Source: Alphaproteobacteria bacterium
Lineage (GTDB): Bacteria; Pseudomonadota; Alphaproteobacteria; Micropepsales; Micropepsaceae
DNA length: 49,306 bases
Direction of reading: 5' to 3'
Assembly (NCBI GenBank): GCA_028865545.1
Contig: JAGWJY010000023.1
Coordinates: 1 to 49,306, forward strand
Position 1 is the first letter of the stretch. Every line of letters starts with the position of its first letter. This document shows, one piece after another, positions 5,504 to 49,306 of this stretch. Under the pieces are notes generated by a model that had not been told where the DNA came from, searched no databases, and was given only the letters and a program-made list of their open reading frames with translations. The position numbers were made by a program, and so were the translations under genes.

Positions 5504-7063
5504 TTATCGATCCAGCGTAAGAACCGTGACAGATGCCGGCGGCAGTGTGATCGACAGCTTGCCGTCCGAAACCGCAGCCGACACCGGCTTGGGCGACACG
5601 GTGTAGGGCGCCGCAAAGGTGTTGACCGAGTCCACCGCCGGCGCCGCCAGTACCTGCCCCTTCGCCACCGTCGCTGCCGTCCCCGGCACCGTGACGGCGA
5701 AATCCGCCGGCCGGTTCGGATCGAGATTGGTCAGCGAGACGACGATCTTGCCGTCCTTCGCCTTGGCCGCGATCGCATCCACGCGCGGCAAGGTGATGTC
5801 TTTATAGGTATAGCTGCCCGCGTCGTAGGTGACCGGCAGGAAAGTGGCATCCTGGAACGGCACATACATCTTGAAGACGTAATAGGTGGGCGTGCGGATC
5901 ATCTTGGGGCCGTCGGTCATCAGCATCGCCTGCAGCACGTTCACCATCTGGGCGATGTTGGCCATGCGCACGCGATCGGCATGGCGGGCAAAGATGTTGA
6001 GATTGAGGGCGGCGAGGATGGCGTCGCGCTGCGAGTTCTGCTGCTGCAGGAAATGCGGGTTCGAGCCCGGCGTCGGCGCCAGCCAGGCGCCCCACTCGTC
6101 GACCACGAGCGCGATCTTCTTTCCGGGATCGTATTGGTCCATGACGGCCGACTGCTTGTCGATCAGGCCGTTCATCTTCAGCGTTTCCTGCAGCACGGAG
6201 GCATAGTCCTGCTCGCCGAAATCCATGGACGGCATGTGCGGAGGCCAGCCGCCCGCCACGGTGTAGGAATGCAGCGACATGCCGTCGAGGTCGAAGGACC
6301 AGCCATGGCGCTTCTTCCAGGTGCTCATCACCGCGTCGGTCCAGTCGGTGTCGGGAGTGCCCGGACCGACCGCGATCTTCTGCATCTTCTGCGCAGGGTC
6401 GAAGTCGTTCACGAAGCGCGCAAAGCGCCGCATCCGCGCGGTGTATTCGGTGGGCGTCATCAGCCCGCCGCAATCCCAGCTCTCGTTGCCGAGACCGAGA
6501 TAAGCGACCTTGTAGGGCGCGGGATGGCCGTTGGCGGCGCGCTCCTTGGCCAGCGTGGTCGGCTGATCGGCCGTCATGTATTCCAGCCAGTCGGCCGCCT
6601 CCTGGACGGTGCCGGAGCCGAGATTGACGGAGATGTAGGCCTGCGAGCCGATCTGGTGCAGGAAGTCGAAATATTCGCCGGTGCCGAAGGCGTTGCTGTC
6701 GAGCACGTCGCCCCAGCTGGTGTTGACGCGGGTGGTGCGGGTTTTGCCGACGCCGTCGCGCCAATGATACTGGTCGGCATAACAGCCGCCCGGCCAGCGC
6801 ACGTCGGGCACATGCAGCTCGCGCAGCGCCGCGACCACGTCTTTGCGGATGCCTCGCACATTCGGAATCTTGGAGTCGCGTCCCACCCAGATGCCGTTAT
6901 AGATCTGGGTGCCGAGCTGTTCGGCGAACTGGCCGAAGATGTGCCGGTCTATGGTGGCGCCGGGCTGGGAGGTGTCCACCTTGACGGCAATCGCGTCCTG
7001 GGCCTGTGCCGCGGCGCAGGAGAGCCCCAACGCCAAAAGAATTCCGGATATCGCTGGGCGCAT
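5504..7063 (-). CDS. abfA: Secreted alpha-L-arabinofuranosidase, GH51
   Basis: Glycosidase of 519 residues that releases arabinofuranosyl side chains from arabinoxylan or arabinan. A signal peptide (residues 1-22, ending AQAQ) sends it to the periplasm. The GH51 marks are visible: HIFGQFAEQLG near residue 41, WPGGC near 90, the acid/base Glu194 in LGNESWD and the nucleophile Glu323 in VDEWGAW. The ATG at 7063 has a GAGGG site 6 bases upstream; the reading frame continues to 7333 but that part overlaps the next gene. A xyl-box-like site sits 30 bases upstream of the start (7093-7106). It is probably cotranscribed with the downstream esterase. Confidence 0.93.
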   Translation of the reverse strand: MRPAISGILLALGLSCAAAQAQDAIAVKVDTSQPGATIDRHIFGQFAEQLGTQIYNGIWVGRDSKIPNVRGIRKDVVAALRELHVPDVRWPGGCYADQYHWRDGVGKTRTTRVNTSWGDVLDSNAFGTGEYFDFLHQIGSQAYISVNLGSGTVQEAADWLEYMTADQPTTLAKERAANGHPAPYKVAYLGLGNESWDCGGLMTPTEYTARMRRFARFVNDFDPAQKMQKIAVGPGTPDTDWTDAVMSTWKKRHGWSFDLDGMSLHSYTVAGGWPPHMPSMDFGEQDYASVLQETLKMNGLIDKQSAVMDQYDPGKKIALVVDEWGAWLAPTPGSNPHFLQQQNSQRDAILAALNLNIFARHADRVRMANIAQMVNVLQAMLMTDGPKMIRTPTYYVFKMYVPFQDATFLPVTYDAGSYTYKDITLPRVDAIAAKAKDGKIVVSLTNLDPNRPADFAVTVPGTAATVAKGQVLAAPAVDSVNTFAAPYTVSPKPVSAAVSDGKLSITLPPASVTVLTLDR

Positions 7064-7494: not shown

Positions 7495-8489
7495 CACGCC
7501 GTCCCCCACAATGCGACCAATGCCGCTTCAATCTCGCGCGGCTCGCGGAGCTGACACAGATGCGATTTCGCGGCGCGGCGCGCCTGTGCGGACAGCGGCC
7601 AGGGCGCGTTCTCGACATACCAGCCCAGATGCTTGCGGAACGTCTTGAGCCCGAGCGCGTCGCCGTAAAAGCGCAAGCTGTCGCGGAAATGATCGAGCAC
7701 GATGGCCAGGCGTTCGGCGAGGCCCGGCTCGCGCATCGCCTCGCCGCTGTGCAGCGCCTGCGCCACAGAGGCGGCGATCCAAGGCTTGCCATAGGCGCCG
7801 CGGCCGATCATCACCGCGTCGGCGCCGGACTGGCGCAACGCTTCGCGCGCCGAAACGTCGTCGAGGATGTCGCCGTTGACGATCACCGGCAGGCGCGTCG
7901 CCGCCTTTACCTCGGCGATGGCGCGCCAATCGCTCGGTCCCTTGAAGAATTGCTGGCGCGTGCGGCCATGCACCGTGATCGCCTGCACGCCGCAGCGTTC
8001 GGCGCGCGCCGCCAGTTCGGGCGCATTGCGGCAGGCATCATCCCAACCGAGACGCATCTTCAGCGTCACCGGACGCGTGGTCGCCTGCACCGTCGCCTCG
8101 ATCAGCGTTTCGGCATGATCGAGATCGCGCATCAGCGCGGAACCGGACAGCCCGCCGGTGACCTCTTTCGCCGGACAACCCATATTGATGTCGATGATAT
8201 GCGCGCCGGAGGCTTCCGCCATCGCCGCGCCCCTGGCGAGCCAACGCGCTTCGCGTCCGGCCAGTTGAACCACCATCAGCGGCAAGCCCTCGCCCACGGC
8301 GCGGCGCACGACATCAGGACGGCCGCGCGCCAGCGTCTCGCAGGCCACCATCTCGGTAACGACATAAGGCGCGCCGAGCTTCGAAGCGGCGCGGCGGAAC
8401 GGCAGATCCGAGACGCCGCTCATCGGCGCGGTCAGCACGCGGCCGGAAATCGTGACGTCGCCAATGCGGAATGTCTGGTCGCGGTTCAA
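7494..8489 (-). CDS. dusB: tRNA-dihydrouridine synthase, DusB type
   Basis: FMN-dependent enzyme that reduces uridines in the D-loop of tRNA. The TIM-barrel starts with the flavin-binding APMSGVSD (near residue 21); DINMGCPAKEV carries the catalytic Cys105; ITVHGRTRQQ and MIGRGAYGKPW are typical of the family. I take the TTG at 8489 as start (331 residues): AAGGCGAAG lies upstream and family proteins begin just before this point, while the longer reading frame runs into tamB. An in-frame GTG some 40 bases upstream is the alternative. In many alphaproteobacteria dusB (nifR3) precedes ntrB; here it precedes a 105-aa hypothetical gene instead. Confidence 0.88.
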   Translation of the reverse strand: MNRDQTFRIGDVTISGRVLTAPMSGVSDLPFRRAASKLGAPYVVTEMVACETLARGRPDVVRRAVGEGLPLMVVQLAGREARWLARGAAMAEASGAHIIDINMGCPAKEVTGGLSGSALMRDLDHAETLIEATVQATTRPVTLKMRLGWDDACRNAPELAARAERCGVQAITVHGRTRQQFFKGPSDWRAIAEVKAATRLPVIVNGDILDDVSAREALRQSGADAVMIGRGAYGKPWIAASVAQALHSGEAMREPGLAERLAIVLDHFRDSLRFYGDALGLKTFRKHLGWYVENAPWPLSAQARRAAKSHLCQLREPREIEAALVALWGTA

Positions 8490-12561: not shown

Positions 12562-14447
12562 CAGAATGCCTGCCCCAACCCGATGTAGATCTCGAAAGAA
12601 TCGGTTTGCGGAACGTGGGTCAGCGGCACGGCGGCATCCAACCGGATGGCGCCGATCGAGGTGTAATAGCGCAGGCCCATACCGGCACCGACGTTCATAG
12701 TGCCGTTGAACGGCAGATTGTTGGTGCTCGCCTGCCCTGCATCCACGAAGGCCGCCGCGCCCCAGTCCTCGCCAAAGCGCTGGCGGAATTCGATGGTGCC
12801 TGCATCCACGGAGGTCGCGCCTGCCGGCGTGCCATCGGCGAAATGCGGCCCGATCGATTGGTAACGGAAGCCGCGGACGGTTGCGCTGCCGCCGGCGTAG
12901 AAGCGCTGGTCGGGCGGCAGATCGAAATTCGAGCCCCCTTGGATGCTGCCGACCAGCGCGCGAAGCGCCAGCACCGAACGGCCGTCGCCCGAAAGGTCGA
13001 AATAGGCCGAGCCGGCACCCTGCAGCGCCACGAACACGACATTCGTCGTGCCCACCGCCAAAGTCGGACTGACGGAAAGAGAGGCGCGCACGCCGCTAAC
13101 CGGGTCGGCCAGCGGGTTCGTCAAACCGGTGCTGTCATAGGTCACGTCAAAGGGGGCGGCGAACAGCTGATACAGGCGGCTCGTTCCTTCCTGCGCAATC
13201 GCGTCATGCGTCGCGGAAAGGCCGACGCTTCCCGCCCAGAGCGAGGAATATTTGCGGCGAAGCGAGGCGCCCAGCGTCTCTGCCGTCTGGCTGTAGGCGT
13301 CGAGCTGCTGCTTCACGGCGGCGACGTTCAGTTCGAGAGTCTGGTTCGGCGCGATGAAGCGCGGCTTGCTGAATTTTGCCGAGAAATTGTAGCCGATGCC
13401 GCTTGTGGCATTGCCGCCAAGACCGGTTGCGGCCGCGGACAAGGCCAGCTGTTCCGCGTTGCCCAGAAGATTGCGGTGTGTCCAGCTTGCCGAAAGGCTG
13501 GCGCCGAGATCCGTGGAATAATTCGCCGAGAATGCGACGGCATGCCGTGGCCGCTCCTGCACATCGAAGGTGAGTGGAACGCGATCGCCTTGCGACGGGG
13601 CCTCGGTCGCGCGGACGGACACAGCCGAAAAGACGCCGAGCGCCATCAGCGCCTGCCGTGCTTTTTCGATGTCGCTGGGCCGGTAGCTTTGACCCGGATG
13701 GATGGTGAGCGCATCGCGAACGAAATTTTCGTGTACGCCCTTCAGCCCTTGGAATGAAATAGGCCCAATGACGTCGCGCGATCCGGTCTCCACCTTGAAC
13801 GTCAGATCGACGGCATGCGCCGCGTCGTCAAGATAGGCGATCGGCGCCTCGACCTTGGCAAAGGCGTAGCCGTCTTCCTGCAGCGCGGTGAGCAGGCGGG
13901 ATTGCGCCGACAGAACGTCTGGCGCCACCGCGGCCTGCCCGACAGAAAGCCCGAGCGCGCCACGCTCGTTGGGCGGAATGGCACCTTCGATGTCGATCTT
14001 CCGCAACCGGTAAAGCGGCCCGCGTGCGATATCGACCTTCACTTCGACTGAAGTGTCTTGCGGCACGGCATCCAGAATATTCGGAAGCTCAGCATCGCCG
14101 ATGTCGTGGCCGGCGATCGAAACAGAAATCTTCGGCGCGTAATAGCCGAAGCTGTTGAGCACGGTCTCTATTCGCGCGATGTCGCCGCGTGCGCGCGCGA
14201 TGAGAGCGAAAGGCGCGGCCGGCGCACTTGTGCGCAAGCTCGACAGAAGCGCGCTCGCACCAATCGCAGCATCGAGATCCGAGGCTCCCGTCCTGGAGAT
14301 CGTCAACGTGTAGGGCTGAGGGTTGGCGGCGTGGCTCGCGGCCGCGGCAAACGCCGCCGTCACGGCCGCAAACATGACGAGACGCAGCAGCCACTTTCGG
14401 CATTCATACCTATAAATGAAAATGCGGCGATGCCGCGGGCCTTTCAT
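12561..14447 (-). CDS. tamA: Outer-membrane assembly protein TamA (Omp85 family)
   Basis: Protein of 628 residues: a basic N-terminus plus signal peptide (to about residue 40, ending SHAA), three POTRA-like segments (about 45-270) and a 16-strand Omp85 barrel. The barrel contains VRGFRYQ, the lid-locking VRGF motif of the family, and ends in the C-terminal Phe of IGLGQAF. The ATG at 14447 follows a GGAACGGA stretch; the reading frame extends to 14543 but the extension lacks signal-peptide character. It partners with TamB, encoded immediately downstream with a 4-base overlap. Confidence 0.9.
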   Translation of the reverse strand: MKGPRHRRIFIYRYECRKWLLRLVMFAAVTAAFAAAASHAANPQPYTLTISRTGASDLDAAIGASALLSSLRTSAPAAPFALIARARGDIARIETVLNSFGYYAPKISVSIAGHDIGDAELPNILDAVPQDTSVEVKVDIARGPLYRLRKIDIEGAIPPNERGALGLSVGQAAVAPDVLSAQSRLLTALQEDGYAFAKVEAPIAYLDDAAHAVDLTFKVETGSRDVIGPISFQGLKGVHENFVRDALTIHPGQSYRPSDIEKARQALMALGVFSAVSVRATEAPSQGDRVPLTFDVQERPRHAVAFSANYSTDLGASLSASWTHRNLLGNAEQLALSAAATGLGGNATSGIGYNFSAKFSKPRFIAPNQTLELNVAAVKQQLDAYSQTAETLGASLRRKYSSLWAGSVGLSATHDAIAQEGTSRLYQLFAAPFDVTYDSTGLTNPLADPVSGVRASLSVSPTLAVGTTNVVFVALQGAGSAYFDLSGDGRSVLALRALVGSIQGGSNFDLPPDQRFYAGGSATVRGFRYQSIGPHFADGTPAGATSVDAGTIEFRQRFGEDWGAAAFVDAGQASTNNLPFNGTMNVGAGMGLRYYTSIGAIRLDAAVPLTHVPQTDSFEIYIGLGQAF

Positions 14448-15903: not shown

Positions 15904-15993
<90 letters not shown>

Positions 15994-39722: not shown

Positions 39723-39833
39723 TACCTGTATTTCGCTATGACATCCTGCCGCGCCGGGACCCCCCCTATTGGGCGTAAAGTGGTTCGTGGATGCGCACGC
39801 ACCAGAAATGACTCCTCAAGGGGGATTTTTACG

Positions 39834-41969
39834 ATGCTAAGACGCACTTTTCTGTTGGCTTCGGCCGCGACAGCCGCCACTACTACGCTTCCGCCCATGA
39901 CGAACCTGTCCGCCGCTCCAATGGAAATGTCGCTGCTTGCCCCCTGGAAGGGGCCACATGGCGGCGGTCCGGCCTTTGCACAGGTCAAGATCGACGATTT
40001 CAAGCCCGCGTTGTTGGCAGGCATCGAGAAAAATCGCGCCGAGATCGCGAAGATCGCGACCAACAAGGCGGCGGCGAACTTCGAGAATACGATTGCTGCG
40101 CTGGAAGATTCAGGCCGACCGCTCGGCCGGGCCGTGTCGATCTTCTACATCTACACCTCGACGATGAACGACAAGCAGATGCAGGCGGTCGAGAAGGAAA
40201 TGTCGCCGGTGCTCGCCGCCTTCAACGACGAAGTCATCCAGAATTCCGCACTGTTTGCACGCGTCAAGGCCGTCTATCAGTCGCGCGAGGCTGCCGGGCT
40301 CACGCCGGAACAGCAGCGGCTTGTCTGGGTCGTCTATCGCCGCTTCGCGCGCCAAGGCGCAGCGCTCGGCGATACCGACAAGGTCAGATTGGCCGACATC
40401 AATCAGAAACTCGCGGGGCTCTATACGGCCTTCAGCCAGAACGAGCTGGGCGACGAGGAAGATCATTGGCTGACGCTGGAAGAAGCGGAACTCGACGGCC
40501 TGCCGGACTGGCTACGCGCCTCCGCGGCGACAGCCGCAGAGGAAAAAGAGCAAAAAGGCAAGTGGCTGATCGCCAATACGCGCTCGGCGATGGAGCCGTT
40601 CCTCACCTATTCCACGCGCCGTGACCTGCGCGAAAAGGCGTTCCGCATGTGGACGTCGCGCGGCAACAACGGCGATGCGCACGACAACAACGCCAATATC
40701 ACCGAAATCCTGGAACTACGCGCCGAAAAGGCAAAACTGCTGGGCTATCCCACCTTTGCCCACTGGATCACCGACTACCAGATGGCGAAGACGCCGGATG
40801 CGGTCATGGACCTTCTGATGAAGGTATGGACGCCGGCGGTGGCGCGCGTTCACGAAGAAGTCACCGACATGCAACAGGTCGCCGACGCGGAAGGCGCCGA
40901 CATCAAGATCGCGCCGTGGGACTATCGCTATTACGCGGAGAAGGTGCGCAAGGCGAAGTACGATCTCGACGAAAGCGCGATCAAGCCGTACCTGCAGCTC
41001 GACAAGATCCGCGAAGGCATGTTCTGGGCGGCTGGGCAGCTTTACGGCCTGGAATTCGTCGAGGTGCATGACCTGCCGGCCTATCGCAAGGATGTGCGAG
41101 TCTTCGACGTGCACAAGGAAGGCAAGCATGCCGGCCTGATGTTCTATGATCCCTATGCGCGCGCCGGCAAGAATTCCGGCGCATGGATGAGCGAGTACCG
41201 CACCCAGGAGCGCTTCCGCACCGCGGTCACGCCGATCGTGTCCAACAATCTGAACTTCGTCGCGGCCGCCCCCGGTCAGCCGATCCTGATCTCATGGGAT
41301 GATGCGGTGACGATGTTCCATGAATTCGGCCATGCCTTGCACGGGCTGAATTCGAACGTGAATTATCCCTCGATCGCGGGCGCCAACACAGTACCGGACT
41401 TCGTTGAATTCCCCAGCCAGCTCAACGAGCACTGGCTACCGACCCAAGAGGTGCTGTCGCGCTTCGCCCTGCATCATGAGACCGGAGCGCCGATGCCCGC
41501 GGAACTCGTCGCCAAGATCAAGAAGGCGCACACCTTCAACAAAGGCTTCGATACCGTCGAATATCTTGCATCGGCGATCGTCGACATGAAAGTGCATCTG
41601 GCGGGCAGCGCGAAGATCGATCCGCATGCTTTCGAGGCCGAGACCCTGAAAGAGATCGGCATGCCCGCGGAAATCGTCATGCGCCACCGCATGCCGCATT
41701 TCGGGCACATCTTTGCGGGTGAAGGATACGCTTCGGGATATTACGACTACATCTGGGCAGATACGCTGGTCGCCGATGCAGCGGAAGCTTTCGAGGATGC
41801 ACCCGGCGGGTTCTACGACAAGGCGCTCGCGAAGAAGCTATACGACGACATCATCAGCCGGGGCAATTCAGTGGATGCCAACGAAGCCTATCGCAAGTTC
41901 CGGGGCCGCGACGCCACCGTGGACGCATTGATGCGCGATAGAGGATTCCCGGCACCGACCAAGGCCTAG
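39834..41969 (+). CDS. dcp: Peptidyl-dipeptidase Dcp-like metallopeptidase (M3 family), exported
   Basis: Zinc peptidase of 711 residues that removes C-terminal dipeptides from oligopeptides. The catalytic FHEFGHALHG gives His496, Glu497 and His500, with a downstream Glu in FVEFPSQLNEHW. GYYDYIWADTLVADA near the C-terminus is characteristic of Dcp. A leader MLRRTFLLASAATAATTT (residues 1-18) suggests export, as in many periplasmic M3 peptidases of alphaproteobacteria. I start at the ATG at 39834 after AAGGGGGA; the frame from 39738 has no ribosome site. It is divergent from norB and its stop lies 2 bases from that of the next, convergent gene. Confidence 0.92.
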   Translation: MLRRTFLLASAATAATTTLPPMTNLSAAPMEMSLLAPWKGPHGGGPAFAQVKIDDFKPALLAGIEKNRAEIAKIATNKAAANFENTIAALEDSGRPLGRAVSIFYIYTSTMNDKQMQAVEKEMSPVLAAFNDEVIQNSALFARVKAVYQSREAAGLTPEQQRLVWVVYRRFARQGAALGDTDKVRLADINQKLAGLYTAFSQNELGDEEDHWLTLEEAELDGLPDWLRASAATAAEEKEQKGKWLIANTRSAMEPFLTYSTRRDLREKAFRMWTSRGNNGDAHDNNANITEILELRAEKAKLLGYPTFAHWITDYQMAKTPDAVMDLLMKVWTPAVARVHEEVTDMQQVADAEGADIKIAPWDYRYYAEKVRKAKYDLDESAIKPYLQLDKIREGMFWAAGQLYGLEFVEVHDLPAYRKDVRVFDVHKEGKHAGLMFYDPYARAGKNSGAWMSEYRTQERFRTAVTPIVSNNLNFVAAAPGQPILISWDDAVTMFHEFGHALHGLNSNVNYPSIAGANTVPDFVEFPSQLNEHWLPTQEVLSRFALHHETGAPMPAELVAKIKKAHTFNKGFDTVEYLASAIVDMKVHLAGSAKIDPHAFEAETLKEIGMPAEIVMRHRMPHFGHIFAGEGYASGYYDYIWADTLVADAAEAFEDAPGGFYDKALAKKLYDDIISRGNSVDANEAYRKFRGRDATVDALMRDRGFPAPTKA

Positions 41970-46367: not shown

Positions 46368-46446
46368 AAGAACAAAAAAGACTCGGGGAGAACGCGTGCG
46401 AGGGCGAGCGTCGGTTTGATCCAACTCAAGAGCGGGGGCTTTGATC

Positions 46447-48831
46447 GTGACGGGAAATTTTACGGGTAAGGCGGCGCGTCTGCGCCCAGTTCTTCTTCCG
46501 GCATTGCTGGCAACAACCATGTTCACAACGGTCTCGGCTGCAATGGCCGACGACAGCGGTGGCCTCGAGACGATCATCGTCACAGCTCAGAAGCGCGAAG
46601 AGGATCTGCAAAAAGTTCCCATAAACGTCCAGGTGCTGACCGCCCAGAAAATTTCCGAGTTGCACCTCACCGATTTCACCGATTTCGCAGAATACATGCC
46701 GAGCGTAAATTTTGCGGCTAGCGGCCAAGGCAGCAACGGCGGTCCGGGGTTCGCGAATATTACGATGCGCGGCATCGCCAGCGATCAGAACGGCAACCAT
46801 TCCGGTCCGCTGCCAACTGTCGGCGTCTATCTCGACGAACAACCGATCACCACGATCGGCGGCACGCTTGACGTGCCCACCTACGACGTTCAGCGCGTGG
46901 AAGCGTTGTCTGGTCCGCAAGGCACGCTTTACGGCGCCAGCTCTGAATCGGGCACGATACGCATCATCACCAACAAGCCGGATATGGACGCCTTCTCGGC
47001 GAGCTACAATATCGAAACCAACTCGGTCGAACACGGCGGCATCGGCTATTCCGGACACGGGATGGTCAATATCCCGCTCGAGGACAATATCGCCGTCCGC
47101 ATCGTGGCGTGGGACGAGCACGACGCCGGTTATATCGACAATATTCACGGCACGCGGACTTATCCGACGTCCGGCGTGACCATCGACAACGCCGCCTTGG
47201 CGAAGAACAACTACAACACGGTCGACAAGATGGGCGGCCGCGCCGCGTTGGAGATTGATCTCGACGACAATTGGACGATTACGCCCATGGTCATGGGGCA
47301 AATCGAAAATTCGAACGGCGTCTTCGCTTACGACCCGACGGTTGGACCGCTGGAGGTCAAGCACTTCTTCCCGGAATATGTCCACGACAAGTGGTATCAG
47401 GCCGCTCTCACGGTTCAGGGCAAGATCAGCAATCTCGACGTGATCTATACCGGCGGCTATATGGACCGGGCGATCAATTCGGAAGCCGACTATACGGACT
47501 ATTCCTTCTGGTACGACACGCTGTACGGCTATGGCGCTTACATCACCGACAATGCCGGCAATGTGATCGATCCGTCGCAATACATTCTCGGCACGGACCA
47601 CTTCACCAAGGAAAGCCACGAGTTCCGCATTTCAACGCCGAAAGACGACCGCCTGCGCATGGTTGCCGGCGCATTCTACGAGCGGCAGACGCACGACATT
47701 CTTCAGGACTACAAAATCAACGGCATCTCCAACAACATCTCGATTCCGGGTTGGCCCAATACACTGTGGCTGACCGACCAAGTCCGCGTGGACCGCGACT
47801 ATGCCGTGTTCGGGGAATTGGCCTATGATATCCTGCCCAACCTCACCGCGACGGGCGGTGTTCGCCTCTTCGAGGCCGATAATTCACTCAAAGGGTTCTT
47901 TGGACTCGCCGCGGGCTACAGTTCTGGCACCGGTATCTCGCAATGCGCCGTGCCGCCGCCGAACCCGACGCCGCTGTACAGCGTGCCATGTCAAAACCTC
48001 GACGCCCGCGTCAAACAAAACGGCGAGACGCACAAGCTCAATCTTACATGGCATGTCGATGATGATCGCATGCTGTACGCCACCTATTCGACGGGGTTCC
48101 GTCCGGGCGGCGTCAACCGGCGCAGCAATTTTGCGCCGTACAAATCGGACACGCTGACGAACTACGAGGTCGGTTGGAAAACGAGCTGGGACAATAATCT
48201 GATGCGCTTCAACGGCGCGTTCTATTTGGAAAATTGGAAGGACTTCCAGTTCCCGTTCCTTGGGCCCAATTCGCTGACGATCATCGCCAATGGCGGTCAG
48301 GCGCAGGTCAAGGGTGCCGAATTCGATTTGACATGGCTGCCGGCCGACGGCCTGACGCTGACCGGCTCCGGCGCTTACAATGACGCGCATCTGACTGCGG
48401 ATTATTGCGGCACGTTCGCCGGCGGCGTCGTCGTCACTTCTTGTCCGGGTACCGCGCAGGCACCCAAAGGCACCCAGCTGCCCATCACGCCGAAATGGAA
48501 ACTCAACGCCACCGCGCGTTATGAGTTCATGGTCGGCAACCTCAACGCCCATGTGCAGGGCTCGCTGGTTCACCAGAGCGGCGCCTGGCCGGATTTGCGC
48601 ATTGCAGAACGCACCCTGCTCGGACAATCGCGCGCCTATACGATGTTCGATTTCGCCACGGGCGTGGAGCAGGGCAACTGGACGCTCGAGCTCTACGTGA
48701 AGAACCTCACCGACGAGCGCGCCCAGCTTGGCCGATATGCGGAATGCACGCCCGGCGTCTGCGGCAACGAGACCTACATTCTGACCAGCCAGCCGCGCAC
48801 CATCGGGCTGACATTCGGCCAGAAATTCTAA
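46447..48831 (+). CDS. TonB-dependent receptor, TBDR2
   Basis: Outer-membrane receptor of 794 residues. The signal peptide runs to about residue 34 (AAMAD), a TonB box and plug follow (LETIIVTAQKREEDLQKVPI; MRGIASDQNG; VEALSGPQGTLYGASSESGTIRIIT), and the barrel ends in the classical terminal Phe (IGLTFGQKF). This branch of short TBDRs often handles siderophore-like or aromatic/lipidic small molecules as well as sugars, so the substrate is open. I take the GTG at 46447 because AGCGGGGG is 8 bases upstream; the TTG at 46441 would be too close to it. Its partner gene appears to be the TPR-sulfotransferase upstream. Confidence 0.92.
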   Translation: MTGNFTGKAARLRPVLLPALLATTMFTTVSAAMADDSGGLETIIVTAQKREEDLQKVPINVQVLTAQKISELHLTDFTDFAEYMPSVNFAASGQGSNGGPGFANITMRGIASDQNGNHSGPLPTVGVYLDEQPITTIGGTLDVPTYDVQRVEALSGPQGTLYGASSESGTIRIITNKPDMDAFSASYNIETNSVEHGGIGYSGHGMVNIPLEDNIAVRIVAWDEHDAGYIDNIHGTRTYPTSGVTIDNAALAKNNYNTVDKMGGRAALEIDLDDNWTITPMVMGQIENSNGVFAYDPTVGPLEVKHFFPEYVHDKWYQAALTVQGKISNLDVIYTGGYMDRAINSEADYTDYSFWYDTLYGYGAYITDNAGNVIDPSQYILGTDHFTKESHEFRISTPKDDRLRMVAGAFYERQTHDILQDYKINGISNNISIPGWPNTLWLTDQVRVDRDYAVFGELAYDILPNLTATGGVRLFEADNSLKGFFGLAAGYSSGTGISQCAVPPPNPTPLYSVPCQNLDARVKQNGETHKLNLTWHVDDDRMLYATYSTGFRPGGVNRRSNFAPYKSDTLTNYEVGWKTSWDNNLMRFNGAFYLENWKDFQFPFLGPNSLTIIANGGQAQVKGAEFDLTWLPADGLTLTGSGAYNDAHLTADYCGTFAGGVVVTSCPGTAQAPKGTQLPITPKWKLNATARYEFMVGNLNAHVQGSLVHQSGAWPDLRIAERTLLGQSRAYTMFDFATGVEQGNWTLELYVKNLTDERAQLGRYAECTPGVCGNETYILTSQPRTIGLTFGQKF

Positions 48832-48960
48832 AGGGGCGCCGCGCAGGAGATGGCGTGCAGCGAAGCTTGGCTTGTCTGGCGTAGCATTGCGGATACAAGC
48901 CCAGGTTCGCCCTTCGGGCTACGCCGGGCAGGCTTCTCTCGCTGTTGCGAGCGAAGCCTG
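48832..48960. repeat. Hairpin-rich intergenic block (REP-like) after TBDR2
   Basis: Several inverted repeats follow one another: GGCTTGT/ACAAGCC (48869-48875 with 48895-48901), TGGCGTAGC/GCTACGCC, and a strong hairpin 48929-48960 with an 8-bp stem, one mismatch, a 5-bp stem and a TGTT loop. The last stem ends at the CCA end of the tRNA-Leu fragment. Such blocks often act as transcription ends and occur in many genomic copies; only one copy is in this window, so repetition is inferred. Confidence 0.45.
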
Positions 48961-49013
48961 GTGCCCCTGGCCGGACTTGAACCAGCACGCCCGTGAAGGC
49001 AACAGATTTTGAG
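48959..49013 (-). pseudogene. 3' half of tRNA-Leu(CAA), truncated at the anticodon loop (att site)
   Basis: On the minus strand the sequence runs from the anticodon loop (CTCAAAA, anticodon CAA at 49011-49009) through the 3' anticodon stem TCTGT, a long variable arm, T-arm GCTGG/CCGGC with TTCAAGT, acceptor strand CAGGGGC, discriminator A and encoded CCA. The 5' half is missing: the bases that should form ACAGA and the D-arm are replaced by unrelated sequence. A tyrosine-recombinase gene begins 180 bases away. This is how a tRNA 3' end looks after an island has inserted at the anticodon loop. Confidence 0.85.
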
Positions 49014-49038
49014 AAGCCCCAGATGCCCTATCCTTTGT

Positions 49039-49164
49039 GTATCCGGGGGTATCCGATTTCCCGATAACCGACTGTTAGCACTAGACTTTTCCGGCTATCG
49101 ACCCATCCATACCTAACCGGATGTTCGCCACGGTTGGCTTTCTGGTTGCACCTATGTTGCACCT
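49039..49164. repeat. Helically phased short direct repeats before the integrase gene
   Basis: GTATCCG occurs at 49039-49045 and 49049-49055 (10-base period), and GTTGCACCT at 49145-49153 and 49156-49164 (11-base period). Between an att core and an integrase gene such phased repeats are good candidates for arm-type recombinase or excisionase binding sites. Confidence 0.4.
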
Positions 49165-49191
49165 GAAATCCGACCTCAACGGAGGTTAGGA

Positions 49192-49306
49192 ATGCCCAAA
49201 ATCAAACTCACCAAGACCGCTGTCGATGCGGCCTCGCCGAAAGAACGCGATTACGAACTCCGAGACACGATGATACCCGGCTTCCTCGTAAAGGTCACGC
49301 CAACCG
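49192..49306 (+). CDS. Tyrosine recombinase (integrase), N-terminus only
   Basis: The first 38 residues (MPKIKLTKTAVDAASPKERDY..., ending near LVKVTPT) match the arm-type DNA-binding domain at the start of island and phage integrases (DUF4102 style: KLT-TVDAA-P---DY--RD---PGF--KV). A strong GGAGG site precedes the ATG. The gene continues beyond the window; the catalytic Arg/His/Tyr domain is not seen. It points away from the tRNA-Leu fragment, into the presumed island. Confidence 0.87.
   Translation, partial: MPKIKLTKTAVDAASPKERDYELRDTMIPGFLVKVTPT

Follow-up and report, generated by a model that had tools for sequence, protein, structure and literature searches.

The window, that is, the whole stretch of DNA that was analysed, comprised the entire contig C80 (49,306 bp) of a genome (G000) available as a 101-contig draft. 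Host genes at its right-hand end are followed by one half of a tRNA-Leu(CAA) gene and by the start of a tyrosine integrase gene. The features were as follows:

39738..41969, plus strand: M3-family peptidase gene, host flank; in relative G007 a homologue is found on the 3' side of the intact tRNA-Leu(CAA) gene
46441..48831, plus strand: TonB-dependent receptor gene, host flank adjoining the tRNA 3' end
48959..49013, minus strand: 3' half of the host tRNA-Leu(CAA), from anticodon loop to CCA, 55/55 identical to intact genes and severed from its 5' half
49007..49013, minus strand: crossover core CTCAAAA, the 7-base anticodon loop and the only bases common to both junctions
49014..49191, no strand: left attachment arm of the element, 178 nt, conserved in sequence in genome G044 and locus L103
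49029..49054, plus strand: TATCC repeats at 49029, 49040 and 49050, about one helical turn apart, putative protein-binding sites
49145..49164, plus strand: two copies of GTTGCACCT (at 49145 and 49156, 11-bp spacing), putative integrase arm sites
49192..49306, plus strand: tyrosine integrase gene start, ATG at 49192, 38 codons, then the contig end

Left junction at the end of the window

The 55-bp 3' half was identical at 55/55 positions to the intact tRNA-Leu(CAA) genes of public contigs L071 and L074. Identity broke at the first base of the anticodon loop, where the intact genes read GGCAGA followed by CTCAAAATC and the window reads GGGCTT followed by CTCAAAATC. ARAGORN called no tRNA at window positions 48959-49013. 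The sole complete tRNA in the window was a tRNA-Ser(CGA) at 15904-15993 on the minus strand. Across the own assembly, neither ARAGORN (38 tRNA places) nor a pattern search found a complete tRNA-Leu(CAA); the leucine anticodons among the 38 places were TAA, TAG, GAG and CAG. Taken alone this absence is weak evidence, because the Trp, Tyr and Ile isotypes were also missing from those places. A GC-rich palindromic repeat (window 48900-48960) was located directly 3' of the tRNA. It also occurs on contigs C4, C14 and C87 of the same genome and in relatives, some copies being immediate neighbours of other tRNA genes (Val, Ala, Thr).

The distance from the start codon to the core, both included, was 188 nt in the window, in G044 and in the IMG/VR locus L103, with similar sequence between. 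In L104 and G228 it was 186 and 196 nt, respectively; the arms there are more distant, and the same core stands beside the tRNA 3' half. The TATCC motif recurred at matching places in L103 and, partially, in G044 and L104. A motif similar to GTTGCACCT was present in L103, in G044 and also in the G044 right arm, the left-arm copies again being at matching places. Tandem Repeats Finder reported nothing for the phased repeats, and the two-copy 9-mer GTTGCACCT, taken by itself, could be a chance match. Since both motifs recur at matching places in relatives, the phased repeats are unlikely to be due to chance.

The 38-residue integrase start was 76% identical to the start of the G044 tyrosine recombinase P0002, a protein of 472 aa as delimited here, with Phage_integrase (PF00589) and Arm-DNA-bind_3 (PF13356) domains. 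A tyrosine integrase at the attachment site was thus recognized from its 38-aa start, the remainder of the gene being beyond the contig. Recombinases on C11, C23, C52 and C85 of the same genome were considered as its continuation; none fitted, as judged by position and frame length only.

A first-pass annotation had placed an island boundary here. It described a tRNA-Leu 3' half cut exactly at the start of the anticodon loop, phased direct repeats and a rightward-pointing integrase start. The cut was borne out by the 55/55 identity ending at the first base of the loop, and the repeats proved short but real (GTTGCACCT twice at 11 bp, TATCC three times, both recurring in relatives). The integrase start, 38 codons from 49192, does face into the island, and relatives share the same left end.

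Integrase relatives were sought in several collections. The 38 residues matched 9 of the 69 genus genomes at E<=0.001, the own genome included, G044 being the best of the other eight at 76%. P0002 matched 43 of 385 class genomes at E<=1e-60, and only G228 exceeded 60% identity (65%). Three loci of the viral collection matched P0002 at 79, 72 and 62%. L103 and L104, of which only the left end is available, show the tRNA half. For the third, L105 (62%), a tRNA half was absent from the 450 nt preceding the integrase gene, and its 17 kb contained no tRNA. Viral contigs scanned with patterns for either arm, left or right, gave no matches, and a phage collection contained no relative of the integrase at E<=1e-60. 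Plasmids yielded 119 records at E<=1e-80 (best 63%). The one plasmid relative checked, Polaromonas pPNAP01, had no tRNA in the 9.2 kb around its integrase.

Right junction at the end of contig C72

Contig C72 was reached by following the biotin genes, which stand 5' of this tRNA in REEB43 and G044. The order at its end is biotin genes, three small ORFs, the 5' half of tRNA-Leu(CAA), CTCAAAA, 110 nt of non-tRNA DNA (beginning AGTGG) and the contig end. When the halves from C72 and the window were rejoined, ARAGORN called one tRNA-Leu(CAA); neither junction alone scanned as a tRNA. In G007 an intact tRNA-Leu(CAA) is flanked by purH, which is on C72 in the own genome, and by the M3 peptidase gene, which is in the window; all three are located within about 8 kb. 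C72 and C80 are therefore the two sides of one ancestral locus.

The last 110 nt of C72 were compared with the right arms of the elements in G044 and G228 and scored 31.5 and 34.0, the best of 1000 shuffles being 10.5 and 12.0, respectively. As the C72 end matches these right arms and the window left arm matches G044 and L103, the two contig ends belong to the two ends of one element family. The right-arm sequence on C72 ends at CGCGCTAG, the start point of an arm repeat in G044. By register with the relatives, a spare tRNA-Leu(CAA) of the own genome is predicted to begin about 47 nt past the C72 end. An open frame at the C72 end was rejected as a protein: it matched one of 69 genus genomes, the own one, and it is the DNA, not the frame, that is conserved in G044.

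The host tRNA-Leu(CAA) is split and is not rebuilt, the two junctions having just the seven loop bases in common. The earlier proposal of a crossover within the anticodon loop is supported, CTCAAAA alone being shared. The accompanying prediction, that a 3' half brought by the island restores an intact tRNA, was not supported: the C72 junction consists of the 5' half, CTCAAAA and non-tRNA DNA. The second copy of the roughly 55-base 3' half, expected inside an intact tRNA-Leu gene, was not found in the own assembly. The two elements with related integrases and a readable right end (G228 and G044) instead carry a separate whole tRNA-Leu(CAA) inside.

Elements in other genomes

In G228 the host tRNA is split between C4:191788 and C4:284054, and the element, 92,266 bp from core to core, is contained in a single contig. 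A complete tRNA-Leu(CAA) is located at C4:191951-192037, with its start 163 nt from the first core base. Only 67 of 87 aligned positions agree with the rejoined host gene, and this copy is therefore foreign. The integrase of this element is 65% identical to that of G044. For its cargo, 54 ORFs of at least 200 aa were listed and 20 were scanned, of which 16 had Pfam matches. Conjugation genes among the 20 scanned encoded a T4SS coupling protein, TrbI, TrbL and a TraG-like ATPase. Other cargo comprised DUF3363, a copper oxidase, a metal P-type ATPase, an RND pump, AbiJ_NTD3 and TIR domains. From this Pfam content the element was classed as a Trb-type conjugative element.

The two ends in G044 are on different contigs. 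The 5' half ends in CTCAAAA at C21:9562, and a complete tRNA-Leu(CAA) occupies C21:9720-9806, 164 nt from the first base of the core; C47 carries the 3' half from position 14172 on. The complete copy may be foreign, but it is identical to the rejoined host gene at 86 of 87 positions. The split host tRNA of G044 (GCGGGCG acceptor) is of a sequence type unlike that of G000, G007, G010, G013, G021 and G022 and nearly equals the element copy; the native gene may have been replaced by an earlier element. The G044 fragments encode an AAA_34 protein, a P-type ATPase and an RND pump, and AAA_34 accompanies a strawberry-notch domain in G228. We infer the C21 part to be element DNA. CTCAAAA is present at both junctions of G000, G044 and G228. 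The loop of the spare tRNA in G044 and G228 reads TTCAAAA instead.

A further split was present in G021, a member of the window's genus, where a 19.7-kb element (C1:52690 to 72398) interrupts the native tRNA-Leu(CAA). A foreign complete tRNA-Leu(CAA) lies beside its recombinase gene at C1:70837-70923, with the loop CTCAAAA. The junctions share 17 bp (ACGCGGCAGACTCAAAA), which is more than the loop. This recombinase and P0002 both match phrog_1 (integrase); BLASTP aligned them at 25% over 85 residues (E 6e-4), and the two are therefore very distant. The G021 recombinase had no Pfam match at 1e-5 and no solved relative at 0.01, so its label rests on PHROGs. The G021 element also carries an MmeI-type restriction-modification enzyme (L075 5249-7948).

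ARAGORN called no tRNA at attL or attR, and one in the rejoined empty site, for all four elements examined (G000, G044, G228 and G021). Every element with both ends read and the tRNA split (3/3: G228, G044 and G021) carries a complete tRNA-Leu(CAA), in each case oriented like the broken gene. Exact matches to the tRNA 5' half plus loop were collected from eight genomes (G000, G007, G010, G013, G021, G022, G044 and G228). In G228, G044 and G021 they were the split half and the element copy only, the element copy being the sole complete tRNA-Leu(CAA) found. G000 gave the split half only, and G007, G010 and G013 one intact gene each. Two contig-end matches in G022 were rejected as another split, being one intact gene at overlapping contig ends. 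RNA-fold z values for the three element-borne tRNAs were -2.46, -4.30 and -2.48, and -0.44 for the own 5' half joined to the right arm. Minimum-energy folds were not plain cloverleaves, and the tRNA calls for this reason rest on ARAGORN.

At the same tRNA, REEB43 follows the classical scheme, with a 5.3-kb island and a 55-bp repeat (rebuilt gene). Its integrase shares the domains of P0002 and 36% sequence identity with it, which places both strategies within one broad integrase family. An 11-bp-phased repeat, TGGTTGCCATGTGGTTGCCA, occurs in both arms of the REEB43 island (L073 5090-5111 and L074 2116-2136) and provides good candidates for integrase arm sites. L071 contains, besides its intact tRNA-Leu(CAA) at 5930-6015, an extra diverged 3' fragment at 7927-7981, about 1.9 kb downstream, which may mark a further small insertion at this tRNA.

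Proposed mechanism, alternatives and known systems

The end of the window is probably the attL of a mobile element, most likely conjugative, whose integrase splits tRNA-Leu(CAA) at CTCAAAA and which would bring a spare gene with it. Integration splits the host gene because the attachment site of the element shares only the 7-bp loop with that gene. The tyrosine integrase would recombine within the CTCAAAA loop, using arm sites at the phased repeats. By homology with G228 and G044, the element of the own genome would make up for the split gene at its right end, where a complete tRNA-Leu(CAA) would start about 163 nt from the first core base. The spare gene would be transcribed from the host tRNA promoter, which remains ahead of the 5' half. 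Promoter scans of two right junctions detected no promoter-like site between junction and spare tRNA and one upstream of the G044 5' half, and no plus-strand terminator was found in the scans around these junctions; each of these results is weak evidence either way. The TTCAAAA loop of the spare genes in G044 and G228 would shield them from the element's own integrase. The CTCAAAA loop of the G021 spare gene does not fit such self-protection, unless the G021 integrase needs a longer core.

The same junctions could be read as a classical tRNA island that rebuilds tRNA-Leu(CAA) with its own 3' half, the C72 end being an assembly chimera or the product of a minority strain. REEB43 does follow the classical scheme at this tRNA, and its integrase is 36% identical to the G044 enzyme; a 101-contig draft also leaves room for a chimera. 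This account is nonetheless very unlikely: with the cores in register, the C72 end shows homology to the right arms of two other elements whose integrases are related, and the own assembly yielded no second 3' half. C72 and C80 are unlinked contigs with a gap between them, which would allow their ends to derive from two different insertions or from a rearrangement. Against this, each contig end has its counterpart at one end of a single element family, seen in G044 and G228, and the host flanks are neighbours in G007; we regard two separate events as highly improbable.

A real split with no spare tRNA in the own genome, UUG being read by tRNA-Leu(TAA), was also considered. Such an arrangement would agree with the presence of tRNA-Leu(TAA), and the lack of a complete tRNA-Leu(CAA), in the own assembly. 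It is unlikely, given that all three split elements with both ends read (G228, G044 and G021) carry a complete tRNA-Leu(CAA) and that the two with related integrases place it 163 and 164 nt from the core. On the preferred reading, a split accompanied by an element-borne spare gene, the own element would work like tRNA-dependent integration; we infer its membership from the relatives, C72 ending before the predicted position of the spare gene. A wider generalization is offered tentatively, at somewhat less than even confidence. Conjugative elements, like phages, would 'break and replace' tRNA genes, with at least two origins at tRNA-Leu(CAA) in this class and very distant integrases. The host promoter would drive the downstream spare, loss of the spare would be costly, and TTCAAAA would shield the two related spares.

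Textbook tRNA islands repair the gene they enter. For such islands the Islander rule is that attP should restore the tRNA (PMC4383910). The present locus resembles the islands described there in having a tyrosine integrase at a tRNA gene, an anticodon-loop crossover class and a displaced 3' fragment, but the C72 junction does not restore the tRNA. Finders of the Islander type rely on a rebuilt gene plus a fragment; an element that splits its target and supplies a whole copy would escape them or be given wrong boundaries.

tRNA-dependent lysogeny has been described for actinobacteriophages, among them Fionnbharth and Gaia (Guerrero-Bustamante and Hatfull 2024, PMC10865867). According to the available text of that paper, Gaia integrates at tRNA-Leu(CAA) with an 8-bp core and its relative Omega rebuilds the gene, a contrast paralleled here by REEB43, which rebuilds the gene. 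Both systems have a tyrosine integrase, a short core in a tRNA gene (8-11 bp in the phages) and a tRNA that is not rebuilt. They differ in that the phages are from Actinobacteria and their lysogeny was shown by experiment (PMC10865867), whereas the conjugative element and islands reported here are from Alphaproteobacteria, have a 7-bp core and are known from sequence. Also unlike the phages as described there, the two elements with related integrases have the spare gene just inside the right junction and the integrase at the left end.

In the ICEMh1/ICEPmu1 family of Pasteurellaceae, an 11-13 bp repeat (11 bp in ICEMh1) corresponds to the anticodon loop of the UUG tRNA-Leu (PMC6861422). A disrupted copy is reported at one end and a full-length copy at the other, with a third, disrupted copy upstream of the full-length gene; this last copy fits the same arrangement as the split elements described here. 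The recombinases there are annotated as XerC/XerD, and the available text of PMC6861422 does not describe the full-length gene as element-borne. Other tRNA-Leu elements have also been described (PMC9437646). For Tn7100, the tRNA-Leu genes left at either end are reported to be complete (PMC9355037), and partial-gene repeats of 66 bp (PMC4908127) and 56 bp (PMC7438473) are given in the text available. A search of the open PMC literature, with subscription papers mostly outside its scope, found no description of a conjugative element with a complete spare tRNA on board.

Elements that bring a whole tRNA copy change the tRNA set of the host. The host may in addition become dependent on the element, as is described for actinophages (PMC10865867). 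The G228 element is complete on one contig, which makes the scheme of a split gene and a spare copy directly testable.
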